A stretch of DNA of 62,610 nucleotides from assembly GCA_003158745.1 (NCBI GenBank), contig PMLC01000065.1, positions 1,657 through 64,266 on the forward strand, read 5' to 3'. The translations under genes and the position numbers were made by a program. Of this stretch, positions 11,476 through 62,610 are shown piece by piece; position 1 is the stretch's first letter; every line of letters starts with the position of its first letter. The stretch is from Acidobacteriota bacterium. GTDB lineage: Bacteria > Acidobacteriota > Thermoanaerobaculia > Thermoanaerobaculales > Thermoanaerobaculaceae. The notes below the pieces were generated by a model, which did not search any database, was not told the origin of the DNA, and was given only the letters and a program-made list of their open reading frames with translations.

Positions 11476-11488
11476 ACGACAGGAAGAA

Positions 11489-11606
11489 GTTGACAGTCGA
11501 CAGTTCACAGTCGACAGTTACAACCCCTCAAAAGCGGTCGCCTGAGCCGAGTGAAACCGGTAGGAGCGGAGATTTGACTGTCGACTGTTGACTGTCAACT
11601 GTTGAC
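11489..11606. repeat. Hairpin of 7-bp words (SACAGYY) between convergent genes
   Basis: The left arm is four consecutive heptamers at 11492-11519: GACAGTC, GACAGTT, CACAGTC, GACAGTT. The right arm, 11576-11603, is GACTGTC, GACTGTT, GACTGTC, AACTGTT. The arms are inverted relative to each other (26 of 32 positions pair) around a 50-base unstructured spacer. It sits between the 3' ends of the NTF2-like gene and queF and could act as a two-way terminator. It is not a CRISPR because the units are too short and have no spacers. Confidence 0.8.
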
Positions 11607-11611
11607 TTGTT

Positions 11612-40731: not shown

Positions 40732-41406
40732 CTACCGCGGAGCGAGTGGCTCCCGACAGGCCGGCACGTCGTTGGCCGGGTTGTTCACGAGCAGGCCAAC
40801 TGGAAACGCCCGGACCGCTTCGGCCGGCTGAGGCCGGAGCACCGGCAGGAGTTCTGAAGCTCCCTCGACGCCAGAGTCGAGCCACAGTGCGTGGTCCTGC
40901 GCGTCGAGGATCACGGGCATCCGGTCGTGGATCGGAGCAATCACCTCGTTTGCACTGGTGGTCAGGATCGTACACGATTCGATCGGCTCCGATCCGTTGG
41001 GAGCCCAACGCTCCCACAGGCCGGCGAAGGCGAACGGGCCGCCGTTGCGCAACCCGATGAAGTACGGCTGCTTGCGCGCGCCGAGGCGCTGCCACTCGTA
41101 GAAACCGTCGGCGAGGACCAGACACCGCCGGCTCCGGAGCGCGGCCCTGAAAGCCGGCTTGTCGGCAACGGTCTCGGCGCGTGCATTGATCATCCGCGAC
41201 CCAATCGAACGGTCCTTCGCCCACGATGGGATCAGGCCCCAGCGCAACTCCACGAGAACGCGGCCGCCTTCGACCCCGGCCCGCACCGCCGCGACGTCCT
41301 GTGTGGGCGCGATGTTGTAGCGAGGCGTCAGCTTCGGCACCTCCGGAAGGTCAAAGAGCTCGGCGATGACCTCGCCAGGCGCCGCCTGGGTGAACCGGCC
41401 ACACAT
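40732..41406 (-). CDS. SRAP-domain abasic-site-processing protein (YedK/HMCES)
   Basis: The 224-residue protein caps abasic sites in single-stranded DNA by a covalent bond through Cys2. It begins MCGRFTQ as required, and has NIAPTQDVAAV, RWGLIPSWAKD, MINARAETV, LVLADGFYEW (active-site Glu) and HDRMPVIL (active-site His). The length is normal. TATCAT six bases before the ATG suggests a leaderless mRNA, which would start exactly at the AUG whose next codon is the catalytic Cys. The 3' end touches the acyltransferase 3' end. Confidence 0.95.
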   Translation of the reverse strand: MCGRFTQAAPGEVIAELFDLPEVPKLTPRYNIAPTQDVAAVRAGVEGGRVLVELRWGLIPSWAKDRSIGSRMINARAETVADKPAFRAALRSRRCLVLADGFYEWQRLGARKQPYFIGLRNGGPFAFAGLWERWAPNGSEPIESCTILTTSANEVIAPIHDRMPVILDAQDHALWLDSGVEGASELLPVLRPQPAEAVRAFPVGLLVNNPANDVPACREPLAPR

Positions 41407-41423: not shown

Positions 41424-41618
41424 GTTCGAACGTCCGCCCTTTTGAAGGTTCTCAGATTCGTTTGTCCGGATGTTCAGAACGTCGAATAGAGGGAAGAAGG
41501 AAGACGGAAGATGGAATGCAAGAAGGAGCGGTAGACCACTCGTGTCTTTCCCCTTCCAGCGATCCTCTCCCCTTCCACGGGAACTTCCGAACCTTCGAAC
41601 GTGCGAACCTGTGAACGG
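41424..41618. repeat. Nested hairpin repeat of 8-bp and 7-bp words
   Basis: Outer arms have an 8-bp period. On the left, 41445-41476, the words are AAGGTTCT, CAGATTCG, TTTGTCCG, GATGTTCA. On the right, 41588-41618, they are CGAACCTT, CGAACGTG, CGAACCTG, TGAACGG, which pair as NNNGTTCN with NGAACNNN. Inside, on the left, is a 7-bp series GGAAGAA, GGAAGAC, GGAAGAT, GGAATGC (41492-41519), and on the right a TTCC-rich complement (41547-41588). It fills the gap between the SRAP gene's 5' end and the hydrolase gene's 3' end. No open frame is convincing. Confidence 0.75.
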
Positions 41619-41627
41619 AACCTGGGC

Positions 41628-42467
41628 TCAGACCGCTCCGGAACGTCGCAGGGGCCGGATCCGGGCAGCAGGCTGCGGGAAGTGCTCCCTCAGGAAACCG
41701 AGGATCGCTTCGGCGGTCGGGATCGGCCTCTCCATGCTCGGGGTGTGACCGGCCGACGCCATCTCGACAAGGCGTGCTTTGGGCATGGCGGCAGCCATCG
41801 CGCGGGACGAGGCCGGGGGCGTGAGGGAGTCCTCGTGGCCCACGATCACGAGCGCAGGGAGGTCCAGAGCGGGCAGCAATGCGGCGCTGTCGGGTCGGTC
41901 GCGCATCCCTGCGAGGCATCCGGTGAGCGCATCCGGGGCAGCGTCCGCCGCGATCGCCCGCAGCTCCTCGAGCAGCCTCGGCGCCCGCGCCTTGCTCGAC
42001 GGACCCACGAGGCCCGCGACAAATTCGTCGAGGAAAGCGGAAACCTCGCCAGCGGCGATTCTACCGATGCTCGCGTCACGACGCTGCATCCCCTCCGGCG
42101 TGTCCGCCTCCGCCCTGGTGTCGACCAGGATCAGACCGGCTAGGCGCTCCGGGCGAACGGCCGCGACGCGGAGGGCGATGTAGCCACCCATCGAGTGACC
42201 CCCGAGGACGAAGCGGCCGAGTCCAAGCGCATCGGCCACACGGACGACGTCGTCCGCCAGTTCGATCATGGCGTAGCCCGTCTTTGGCTTGTCGGACGCC
42301 CCGAACCCCCGCAGGTCCGGCGTGATGAGTCGCGCGGCCTGTTCGACCGCTGTCCGTATCGGCGTCCACATCGCCGATGAGAGCGGAAACCCGTGCAGCA
42401 GGACGACCGGCACGCCCTCGCCGTGATCCTCAACCTCCAAGGTCACAGCACCCAGGTCGATCCGCAT
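41628..42467 (-). CDS. Alpha/beta hydrolase
   Basis: The 279-residue enzyme has the alpha/beta-hydrolase fold: VVLLHGFPLSSAMW (oxyanion region), the nucleophile elbow GGHSMGGYIAL, the acid strand VIVGHEDSLTPP and the histidine AGHTPSME. It probably hydrolyses an ester, lactone or similar bond; 3-oxoadipate enol-lactonase-like proteins have the same order, but the substrate cannot be set from sequence. I chose ATG 42467, with GGAGGCGCG upstream, over a long upstream extension that runs into repeat sequence. It lies between two repeat hairpins. Confidence 0.85.
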   Translation of the reverse strand: MRIDLGAVTLEVEDHGEGVPVVLLHGFPLSSAMWTPIRTAVEQAARLITPDLRGFGASDKPKTGYAMIELADDVVRVADALGLGRFVLGGHSMGGYIALRVAAVRPERLAGLILVDTRAEADTPEGMQRRDASIGRIAAGEVSAFLDEFVAGLVGPSSKARAPRLLEELRAIAADAAPDALTGCLAGMRDRPDSAALLPALDLPALVIVGHEDSLTPPASSRAMAAAMPKARLVEMASAGHTPSMERPIPTAEAILGFLREHFPQPAARIRPLRRSGAV

Positions 42468-42530
42468 CGCGCCTCCCTTGTTGGTCAGTGTATGCCTCTC
42501 GCCGCCTCTCCGCCGCGCCTCAGCAATCGG

Positions 42531-42694
42531 AGGTTCAAACGTCCAACGGCAGCAGAGGGGCAGAGGAGGCGGGGAGCAGAGGAGCACGAGACGCACCCAC
42601 CATTTGCGTGTCTGTCCCCTCTGCACCTCTGCTGTTGAAGAACCCCCGAACTTGCGAACGTTCCTCAGCTCCTCCGCTCCTCTGCCCGCCGCTC
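42531..42694. repeat. Nested hairpin repeat of 8-bp words
   Basis: The series GCAGAGGG, GCAGAGGA, GGCGGGGA, GCAGAGGA, GCACGAGA (42552-42591, exact 8-bp steps) pairs with CCCCTCTG, CACCTCTG, CTG (42616-42634) across the apical stem AGACGCA/TGCGT. A second 8-bp series CCTCAGCT, CCTCCGCT, CCTCTGCC (42663-42686) could pair with the same left arm instead. Outer words AGGTTCAA, ACGTCCAA on the left and CGAACTTG, CGAACGTT on the right match the outer words of the hairpin at 41424. The DNA up to the TPP riboswitch holds no gene. Confidence 0.75.
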
Positions 42695-42764
42695 TTGACG
42701 TTCCATCCCACTAGTGCGAGATTGTCTCCGGCACCTTTGTTCTTTGAGTTGTTCGATTGGCTTT

Positions 42765-42846
42765 CCGTGGGGGTGCCCCGCCGCGGGCGGGGCTGAGATC
42801 ACACCCTTGGAACCTGATCCGGGTCATGCCGGCGTAGGGAACGGGC
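42765..42846 (+). promoter_or_regulatory. TPP riboswitch (THI element)
   Basis: The conserved blocks are in order: GGGGGTGCCCC, GGGGCTGAGATCACACCC, TTGGAACCTGATCCGGGT and CATGCCGGCGTAGGGAAC, with P1 closed by CCGT and ACGG. These include the CTGAGA pyrimidine-sensing bulge and the ACCTGATC...GTAGGGAA diphosphate-sensing helix. Downstream, CCCTCCCC (about 42875) can pair with the ribosome-binding site GGAGGAG at 42901, so translational control of the TonB receptor is likely. A short GACGG-CACC-CCGTC hairpin also lies between them. Confidence 0.93.
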
Positions 42847-42909
42847 CACGAGGCGTCAGAGACGGCACCCCGTCCCTCCCCTGAACCCGGTCGCCCGGAA
42901 GGAGGAGTG

Positions 42910-45321
42910 ATGAGGTCGGTGATTCTGGCGCCGTTCGTGTTTCTTGCCGCCGCAAGCGTCGCGACGGCGGTGGTCCTGCGGGGTAAAGTCCTTGACTCTT
43001 CGAGCGACAAGCCGCTGTCCAGCGCCCTCGTCGAAGAGCTCTCGACTCACATGACCGCCATGACGGACGCGGCTGGCGTGTTCACGCTCGAGGTCGCTGC
43101 CGGGCCGCTCGAGTTGGCTGTGTCGCATACCGGCTACCGCGTGGTTCGCCTGACCCTCGCAGCACCAACGGTTCAGCCTCTCGCCGTTCGCCTGGACCCC
43201 GTGATCTCCATCGCCGACCGCGTTGAGGTCACTGCCGCCCGTGCCCGTGAGGGAACCGACCCCGTGAGCTTCACCAACCTGCCACAGGAGCGGATCCAGG
43301 AAACCTACTGGGGGCAGGACCCCGCGATCCTGCTTTCGCAGACCGTGCCCGGCTACTTCGCTTACAACGACAGCGGCAACGGCATCGGCTACTCGTACTT
43401 CTGGATCCGCGGCTTCAATCAGGCCCAGACGAGGGTTTCGCTCGACGGCGTGCCTCTCAACGACGCCTCGGACGGCGAGCTGTACTTCATCGACCTCGCC
43501 GACTTCCTCGCCACCGCCGGCGACGTGCAGATCCAGCGCGGCGTGTTCGGCCTCTCGGGCATCGGCGGTGCGGTGGACATCACTACGGCTCCTCCTTCGA
43601 TGACGCCCTCGTTCACGATCACGAGCGGGTTCGGGTCCTACAACACGCAGCGTGTGTCTACCCGCTGGGACTCCGGGCTGATCGACGGCAAGTGGGCCAT
43701 AACTGCTCGCTACTCGAAGGTCAAGACCGATGGCTACCGCGATCAGTCGTGGGTTGACATGTGGAACTACTACCTCTCTCTCGCGCACTTCGGCGAGCGC
43801 TCCCGCTGGCGCCTCGTCCTCTTCGGCGGCCCGGAGCAGACGCACCTCGCCTACGATGGCGTGCCCAAATCCGTGCTCGCCGGCGGCCTCACCGGCAGTG
43901 TCGACCGGGACCGGCGATTCAACCCGCTGACCTACCCTGGCGAGCAGGACAACTTCACACAGCCGCACTACGAGATCCTCCATGACGTGGCGATCTCGCC
44001 GCGGACCCAATTCTCCGAGGCGTTCTTCCTTTTCACCGGTAGCGGCTACTACACGGAGCACAAGACTGACGAGCCCCTCTCCTTCTACGACCTGCCGCCC
44101 GTCACGCTGTCCGACGGCACGGTCGTGACCAACACGGATCTCGTCCGCCACCGGCAGATCGACGAGTGGGACGCCGGATGGGTGCCGACGCTCACGACGA
44201 CCGTCGGAACCTGGACGCTTACCGCCAAAGGCGAGTTGCGCCTCCACGACGGCCACAGCTACGGCTCAGTGCAGTGGGCGCAGTACTACCCTCCGAACGT
44301 GGCGCCGGACCACCGCTACTACGACTACCAGCTCGGCAAGCGCAGCGCTGCGCTGTCGGGCACCGCCACATGGAAGGTCAGCGAGGCGCTCGCCCTCACC
44401 GCCGGCATCGAGGCCTCGCAGCAGCGCTACAACCTGTCACACGACGTGCTCGCCGCTGTCGATTTCGCACAAGCGTACGATTTCATCCTCCCCCGTTTCG
44501 GCGCCCTCCTCCACGTCAACGGCACGACCGACCTCTACTTCAACGTCGCGAAGGGCGGGCACGAGCCCGCGTTCCGCGAGATCTACGATCCGGAGGGCGA
44601 GTACTCGACGGAGCGGGTCAACCTACGCCCAGAGGACCTCTGGGACTGGGAGACCGGCGTCTCAACCCGTCACGAGCATTGGCGCGCGCGGGCCAACCTC
44701 TTCTTCATGAACTTCCTGAATGAGATCGTCTACAGCGGCGCCCTGGACTCAAGCGGCGTCCCGATCTACGGCAACGGCGCGCACTCCCACCACGAGGGGC
44801 TCGAGCTCGATGCCAGCGCCGACCCGCTCCCCTCCCTCGGATTCGACGGCACCTTGACGCTGTCGCACAACACGTTCGTTTCCTACCACGACTACAACAG
44901 CGACGGCAGCGTCAACGTGTACGACGGCAACGTCCTCGGCGGCTACCCCGAGGGGCTCGCGTCGCTCACCGCCCGCCTCAAACTCGGCGCCGCTCAGGTC
45001 GCGCTTGCCGGGCGCTACGTCGGCCAGTTCTACCTCGACAACACCCAGGACAACCGCCGCGACCCGGAACTGCGCCAGGCGTCCGGTTACGTGCCGCTCA
45101 TCAACCCAGCGTTCACCGTGCTTGACGCGTCGCTCCGCGCCCCTCTGCCAAGGGCGTTCGTGGCGTCGCTCGGCGTGAGCCGGCTCGACATCGAGGTCCG
45201 CCTCAACAACCTGCTCAACCGCCAGTACACCGCCTTTGGCTACATCGGCGACGATGGCGCCCCGCTGTTCATTCCGGCCGCCATGCGCAACGTCTACGTC
45301 GGGTTCACGCTCGGACTCTGA
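42910..45321 (+). CDS. TonB-dependent outer-membrane receptor under TPP control (thiamine-type uptake)
   Basis: The 803-residue protein has a signal peptide, a carboxypeptidase-like beta-sandwich domain (VLRGKVLDSSSDKPLSSALV to VRLDPVIS, about residues 20-100), a plug domain (VEVTAARAREGTDPVSFTNL, WIRGFNQAQTRVSLDGVPLND, GDVQIQRGVFGLSGIGGAVDI) and a beta-barrel ending in a typical aromatic-rich last strand NVYVGFTLGL. It imports a ligand across the outer membrane with TonB energy. The TPP riboswitch upstream implies that the ligand is thiamine, its phosphates or precursors, as known for TPP-controlled receptors in Bacteroidetes. ATG 42910 is favoured over GTG 42907 by spacing from GGAGG. Confidence 0.92.
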   Translation: MRSVILAPFVFLAAASVATAVVLRGKVLDSSSDKPLSSALVEELSTHMTAMTDAAGVFTLEVAAGPLELAVSHTGYRVVRLTLAAPTVQPLAVRLDPVISIADRVEVTAARAREGTDPVSFTNLPQERIQETYWGQDPAILLSQTVPGYFAYNDSGNGIGYSYFWIRGFNQAQTRVSLDGVPLNDASDGELYFIDLADFLATAGDVQIQRGVFGLSGIGGAVDITTAPPSMTPSFTITSGFGSYNTQRVSTRWDSGLIDGKWAITARYSKVKTDGYRDQSWVDMWNYYLSLAHFGERSRWRLVLFGGPEQTHLAYDGVPKSVLAGGLTGSVDRDRRFNPLTYPGEQDNFTQPHYEILHDVAISPRTQFSEAFFLFTGSGYYTEHKTDEPLSFYDLPPVTLSDGTVVTNTDLVRHRQIDEWDAGWVPTLTTTVGTWTLTAKGELRLHDGHSYGSVQWAQYYPPNVAPDHRYYDYQLGKRSAALSGTATWKVSEALALTAGIEASQQRYNLSHDVLAAVDFAQAYDFILPRFGALLHVNGTTDLYFNVAKGGHEPAFREIYDPEGEYSTERVNLRPEDLWDWETGVSTRHEHWRARANLFFMNFLNEIVYSGALDSSGVPIYGNGAHSHHEGLELDASADPLPSLGFDGTLTLSHNTFVSYHDYNSDGSVNVYDGNVLGGYPEGLASLTARLKLGAAQVALAGRYVGQFYLDNTQDNRRDPELRQASGYVPLINPAFTVLDASLRAPLPRAFVASLGVSRLDIEVRLNNLLNRQYTAFGYIGDDGAPLFIPAAMRNVYVGFTLGL

Positions 45322-62497: not shown

Positions 62498-62530
62498 TCC
62501 AGCCGACAGCTCTCCACCACCCACCCAACC

Positions 62531-62610
62531 AGCTCACAGCTGACAGCTCCTCCACCCGCCCAAACTCCTTATCCCCAAGGAGGAACAGCTGTGAGCTGTG
62601 AGCTGTGAGC
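62531..62610. repeat. Hairpin of 7-bp words, cut by the window edge
   Basis: The left arm has GCTCACA, GCTGACA, GCT (62532-62548). The right arm has AGCTGTG three times in exact 7-bp steps (62587-62607) and continues beyond the edge. Written in the other phase the word is SACAGCT, which fits the SACAGYY word of the hairpin at 11489. It lies after the FmdB-type gene. Confidence 0.7.

Follow-up and report, generated by a model that had tools for sequence, protein, structure and literature searches.

The locus and its surroundings

The window (the whole stretch of DNA that was analysed, 62,610 nucleotides with a G+C content of 67%) contains an intergenic element in which one pair of short periodic arrays is nested inside another, placed between an SRAP gene and the gene of an alpha/beta hydrolase (Table 1). 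The stop codon of the hydrolase gene is 11 nt away from the element, and the SRAP gene starts 17 nt beyond its other end. An earlier note had described a hairpin with steps of eight and seven nucleotides at 41424-41618, and direct reading of the letters confirms both the coordinates and the steps. The cores of the left outer arm are, in order, GTTC, GTCC, TTTT, GTTC, ATTC, GTCC and GTTC, and as only three of the seven are exact, this arm is decayed. The inner 5' arm consists of GGAAGAA, GGAAGAC, GGAAGAT and a final GGAA, and the right outer arm coincides with a match of the genome-wide pattern search (G000:C40:43237-43272). The fold is among the weakest of the class (DNA z = +0.16; RNA z = -1.8 and -3.9 on the two strands), and as a member of that class the hairpin is weak and decayed.

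Three sister elements make up the window's longest inverted repeats. The first is located between convergent DUF4440 and QueF genes, the second between divergent genes, upstream of a TPP riboswitch, and the third lies 33 nt after a zinc-ribbon gene and has an assembly gap (NN, 62611-62612) inside its 3' arm. The riboswitch itself precedes the gene of a TonB-dependent receptor, which suggests thiamin-regulated outer-membrane uptake. Searched at gathering thresholds, known RNA families gave this nearby riboswitch and nothing else, and among the matches listed in a plasmid similarity search there were short ones at the riboswitch only.

Table 1. Arms of the nested element, its sister elements and neighbouring features in the window
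Feature	Position	Strand	Details
SRAP gene	40732-41406	-	PF02586, E=2.1e-75
Left outer arm, word GTTCnnnn	41424-41475	+	7 units, exact 8-nt step; read directly, family matched genome-wide
Inner 5' arm, 7-nt word GGAAGAn	41488-41516	+	lag-7 score 16
Inner 3' arm, TTCC-rich, poorly periodic	41545-41580	+	read directly; weak fold
Right outer arm, 8-nt word GAACnnnn	41581-41616	+	five exact cores; lag-8 score 16
Alpha/beta hydrolase gene	41628-42467	-	PF00561, E=1.9e-35
Sister element, 7-nt word ACAGTnn / nnACTGT	11484-11611	.	RNA z -9.1 and -7.6
Sister element, 8-nt words GCAGAGGn and GAACnnnn	42527-42690	.	RNA z -4.8 and -4.0
Sister element, 7-nt word ACAGCTn	62530-62610	.	RNA z -6.5 and -5.5
TPP riboswitch	42759-42857	+	RF00059, 72.5 bits
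TonB-dependent receptor gene	42919-45321

A genome-wide class of periodic arrays

The genome comprises 3.74 Mb in 163 contigs; 392 kb were analysed in addition to the window, so that 454 kb were scored for periodicity, and genes were called with a simple hexamer model. In the 454 kb, intergenic match-run segments numbered 68 at lag 7 and 42 at lag 8, compared with 1 and 3 after shuffling of the intergenic sequence, and the other lags gave 0-5 segments (0-3 in the shuffles), except for the harmonics 14 and 16. A search for four consecutive GAACn4 units with at most one mismatch gave 47+47 matches in the genome and none with the reversed control pattern. The earlier note had proposed to look for further copies in the genome and in relatives, and both contain them. 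It had also claimed an exact period with degenerate letters, which is borne out across the class, and a set of loci with one architecture and different words. Such a set exists, but it is not confined to the four loci named there: in an enlarged sample of 632 kb, 72 of 337 intergenic regions carry arrays. Extrapolated to the genome, this is roughly 400 array sites if the sample is representative, a number that may be an overestimate because part of the sample was picked for holding arrays.

Sorted by eye, there are about eight word families in this genome. Those with seven nucleotides are A (ACAGTnn), B (AGAGTnn), D (AAAGGTn and relatives), F (ACAGCTn), G (GGAAGAn/GGTAAGA) and H (GGTCCGn), and those with eight are C (GCAGAGGn) and E (GAACnnnn). 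Nesting is seen at some loci, mostly with the 8-mers C and E outside 7-mers. The arrays break assemblies, and in about nine cases a GAAC array is found a few hundred bases or less from a contig end (C5, C9, C12, C24, C48, C60, C67, C132, C158).

Polarity, ends and independence of the arms

In an element of this class, two short arrays converge on a spacer, W(n)-spacer-W'(n); the word W has 7 or 8 nt, of which one to four are variable and the others form an invariant core. Word and complement always follow in one order, as seen in all 44 pairs of two genomes, with no pair in the reversed order. With most words it is the strand richer in G that makes up the 5' arm, and the same is seen in Cyanobacteria and other phyla; in genome G030 the variable letters make this tendency weak. 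Arrays of the families A and B start with AGTnn and end with nnACT, with little conservation outside. The proposed folding of each locus gave a divided result: both strands of A and B elements give strong folds (mean z about -6), but the locus at 41424-41618 folds weakly.

It had been suggested that pairing is what selection or copying acts on, and for a letter-by-letter process this is not supported, as the variable positions in the two arms of one hairpin show no more agreement than those in arms taken from different hairpins. Agreement of the variable letters between arms of the same hairpin and between shuffled arms was 0.458 versus 0.499 in A, 0.567 versus 0.565 in B, and 0.462 versus 0.544 in A of G030. 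Arm lengths within hairpins are uncorrelated, and adjacent units of A, B and E in this genome resemble each other at or below chance expectation. In G030, two elements are copies of each other, and here two of the four variable parts of one arm differ while the other aligned parts are 87-91% alike; such a fast turnover of the variable letters means that the independence of the arms could be secondary. The spacers in this genome are almost all unrelated and the word units are common genome-wide, hence it is the word block that spreads and not the whole element. In G030, an inner box TTCCATCGCA...TGCGATGGAA adjoins ACAGTnn arrays (for example at L200:7999 and 10219, L204:11779 and L209:12069); this box was not seen in the elements of the present genome that were read.

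Other words at the same sites in relatives

Over syntenic stretches, the DNA of congeners is mostly 75-90% identical. At the QueF site, where this genome has A, there is a GGTCC-type hairpin in G001, F in G005 and another word in G007, and short spacers are found in G002, G004 and G006. At the hydrolase site, E around G in this genome corresponds to E plus B in G001, B around G in G006, and B plus GGACC words in G008 (families at both sites were assigned by eye). At two orthologous sites congeners thus bear the same kind of element in other words; relatives swap words wholesale, and the arms cannot be aligned letter by letter. As congeners use other words, a search with a single word had falsely indicated that they lack the arrays. 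Array sites of this genome and of G001 coincide in 2 of 2 cases, against 0 of 23 other sites (p=0.003), and pooled over three relatives the coincidence has p=0.006, both with small numbers.

Within the same phylum the distribution is patchy: of 297 genomes, 13 have B and 16 have E, counts that are lower bounds for the class because each pattern catches one word only. Several of these genomes have variable letters of their own, for example GAACnnTA in G306. Arrays of ACAGTnn are present in Cyanobacteria, Chloroflexi, Desulfobacterales, Bacteroidales, Firmicutes and others, often in metagenome-assembled genomes, and many other 7-mers accompany them there. In Desulfobacterales HSG2 (L114, L170, L174), 7-mer arrays reach 400 bp, and their words GGTTTAC/GGTTGAC and GGGTTAA resemble eukaryotic telomere repeats. 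A metagenome-assembled genome of the Sphingobacteriales (L126:4176-6001) has nested inverted arrays with a 7-mer outside and the 8-mer ATCAGCAC inside, which flank a complete aminotransferase-like gene of 1.2 kb in place of a short spacer.

Position relative to genes

Array density is about 61-fold higher between genes than within them; per kb it amounts to 2.39 between convergent, 1.43 between tandem and 0.56 between divergent genes (p=0.003). Between tandem genes the median distance is about 10.5 nt from the preceding stop codon and 51.5 nt from the next start. A stable stem-loop soon after the stop codon is characteristic of the class and weak at 41424-41618, and a role of the elements as RNA structures, as had been considered for the locus, is possible and fits the position at 3' ends. 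T is somewhat enriched after B arms and not after many A arms, which have a G-rich flank. As some A elements have no T-rich tract past the 3' arm, an ordinary intrinsic terminator is not evident.

Comparison with known repeats

REP, BIME and REPIN elements are short intergenic hairpins near the 3' ends of genes, as are the elements described here. Unlike those, the arms are periodic word arrays of many families, and genes of Y1/RAYT enzymes are not linked to them. A likeness to MITEs is not supported, as near-identical copies with a common internal sequence are absent from the sample of this genome (there is one copied pair in G030), and CRISPR was rejected on repeat architecture, the units being 7-8 nt long and spacerless and the arms mirrored. 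The earlier note was fair in seeing no REP, BIME, ERIC, MITE or CRISPR, yet a close published relative exists in the paired heptamers of Xanthomonas (PMC4692102).

In Xanthomonas campestris and X. axonopodis, GGGAATC heptamers form arrays whose unit is 7 nt long and partly variable (GGGANTN; Rehm et al. 2015, PMC4692102). They mostly have four units, are 89-93% intergenic, lie nearer to the upstream gene, are fewer between divergent genes, and form inverted repeats in 70-75 convergent pairs (PMC4692102). The tandem 7-nt units with variable letters, the number of about four units, the intergenic position, its placement relative to genes and the convergent pairing are common to both. Whereas Xanthomonas has one word of G-quadruplex type per genome, here about eight words are found, two of them 8-mers, with nested composites and words that are not of the G-quadruplex type; neither the GGGAATC word nor runs of three G occur in the core of the main families. 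The present class is a richer variant of the Xanthomonas paired heptamers, with many words per genome, 8-mers and nesting.

Heptamer direct repeats, TAACTGA and others, are known from Beggiatoaceae, Cyanobacteria and Bacteroidetes (MacGregor 2015, PMC4679880). They likewise form intergenic arrays that are patchily distributed over distant phyla and at which assemblies break, but in Beggiatoaceae they are mostly direct repeats upstream of start codons, with one indirect repeat, and not convergent pairs behind stop codons (PMC4679880). The P6b stem of the Nostoc trnL intron (PMC4476775) is also built of a degenerate 7-nt repeat, with wholesale and independent replacement of the repeat class at the site; this is a single locus in a group I intron, whereas here the elements are dispersed between genes and have spacers of tens of nucleotides. 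That heptamers are over-represented in bacteria has been on record since 2007 (cited in PMC4679880 and PMC4692102), and the literature searched contained no accepted cause for it. In the same limited search, which does not prove novelty, elements that unite many words per genome with 8-mers, nesting, independent arms and word change at orthologous sites were not found described.

Formation of the arrays

With its many words, strict polarity, arms that are not copies, sharp ends and word change at orthologous sites, the genus is a tractable handle on the problem. Any mechanism has to comply with these facts, which allow slippage, transposition, selection and templated addition to be tested against each other.

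The reading that we tentatively prefer is a polarised, block-wise addition of words, the products of which are kept as bidirectional stem-loops at 3' ends. The words of an arm would be added as one block, independently of the other arm but in a polarity that never changes; extension of a 3' end at an intergenic break or a stalled fork, with an array from elsewhere in the genome being copied, is one conceivable route. Where elements are nested, the inner one would have formed later, in the loop of one already present. Either strand would yield a stem-loop, which would persist mainly right after stop codons and could act there as a bidirectional transcription terminator or as an mRNA 3'-end stem-loop. 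It is favoured by the unrelated spacers and by the fact that neither reverse transcriptase nor Y1 genes track the arrays: genes with PF00078 were considered as drivers and rejected, G021 and G025 carrying arrays without any RVT_1 match, and Y1_Tnp is found in 48 of 60 relatives irrespective of arrays, so that Y1/RAYT transposases were rejected as well. Counted in its support are also the restriction to periods of 7 and 8, the polarity in 44 of 44 pairs, the independence of the arms, the sharp ends of A and B arrays and their strong folds, the 3'-end position and the change of words at orthologous sites. Counted against it are the turnover of variable letters in G030, the missing T-tracts of some A elements, the weak fold of the locus and the facts that no enzyme or template for the addition was found and that reverse transcriptase genes do not track the arrays. 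A cassette around a special gene was rejected too, since the genes that widely separated array pairs enclose in other phyla look ordinary; named from translations alone, they include a tryptophanyl-tRNA synthetase (L089) and an ornithine-aminotransferase-like protein (L126).

Alternatively, function may come first, with 3'-end stem-loops being selected as bidirectional terminators or mRNA stabilisers and the words, which would carry no message, resulting from repeated local growth of stems at terminator sites. The position at 3' ends and the scarcity between divergent genes agree with this, as do the strong folds on both strands and the recurrence of arrays at orthologous sites in other words. 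It leaves unexplained, however, why the same few cores occur at dozens of sites and in other phyla and why the period is strictly 7 or 8, and the variable letters do not match between arms; we consider this explanation somewhat unlikely.

Sharp ends, nesting and the patchy distribution, together with the two G030 copies whose similarity stops at the array ends, could also point to mobile hairpins, MITE- or REPIN-like, that are moved by a transposase such as a Y1 enzyme. Transposition is weakly supported and altogether improbable, as the spacers in this genome are almost all unrelated, there are many word families per genome, and the Y1 genes mostly have no arrays in the flanks examined, apart from one case within about 1 kb in this genome.

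Hairpin-primed slippage, named in the earlier note as a possible source, or quasi-palindrome correction, would let the arms copy each other at forks, with 7/8 nt as the contact length of the polymerase. Heptamers are indeed the commonest long repeats in many bacterial genomes, and contact with the polymerase has been put forward as the cause (Mrazek 2007, as cited in PMC4679880); between Cyanothece strains, most differences are 7-nt indels (PMC4679880), and the arrays of Microcoleus are near-homogeneous with adjacent units alike, as slippage predicts. In the present genome the arms are not mutual copies, being unmatched at their variable letters and uncorrelated in length, and neighbouring units are alike no more than by chance, so that both fold-back copying and simple slippage are disfavoured; slippage-grown LSSR were rejected on this lack of likeness between adjacent units in A, B and E. 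As the same words also occur at many unrelated sites, this origin is quite improbable.

DRT10 is a known bacterial case of tandem-repeat DNA synthesis from an RNA template, comparable to telomerase (PMC12632851); the likeness is an analogy only, and no such gene is linked to the arrays. A bolder extension of block-wise addition, which we regard as a long shot, is that in several phyla a programmed, polarised polymerase, telomerase-like or template-switching, extends 3' ends at intergenic breaks by 7/8-nt words, with arrays fused head to head as the result, each genome having its own dialect of the same few cores.

A periodic array bound by a DNA- or RNA-binding protein, with the core as the site and the variable letters as spacer, would fit the invariant core and variable part at a fixed step in A, B and E. 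It is very improbable in view of the variable letters, which are not free (in A mainly TG, CG, TC and CA), of the different words of congeners at one site, and of the about eight different proteins that would be needed in one genome. That the arrays are often found at contig ends or gaps might suggest chance, composition or an assembly artefact, which is practically out of the question given the shuffles, the controls with coding sequence and reversed patterns, and the same architecture in independent assemblies of congeners and other phyla.

Further observations

At the threshold used, no 7/8-bp array was found in C157:1-120000 (L253-L258), whereas other contigs have about one site per 9 kb. 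The G+C content of this stretch is 65.7% versus 67.6%, and the contig may have come into the bin from another organism, or the stretch may belong to a different replicon or region. A separate-looking dispersed family, an intergenic inverted repeat TCTCTGGCTGCGC...GCGCAGCCAGAGAGAC with GCCCCGCGGGCTCGGAGGGG, is present at L035:13861-14280 and L036:16381-16800.
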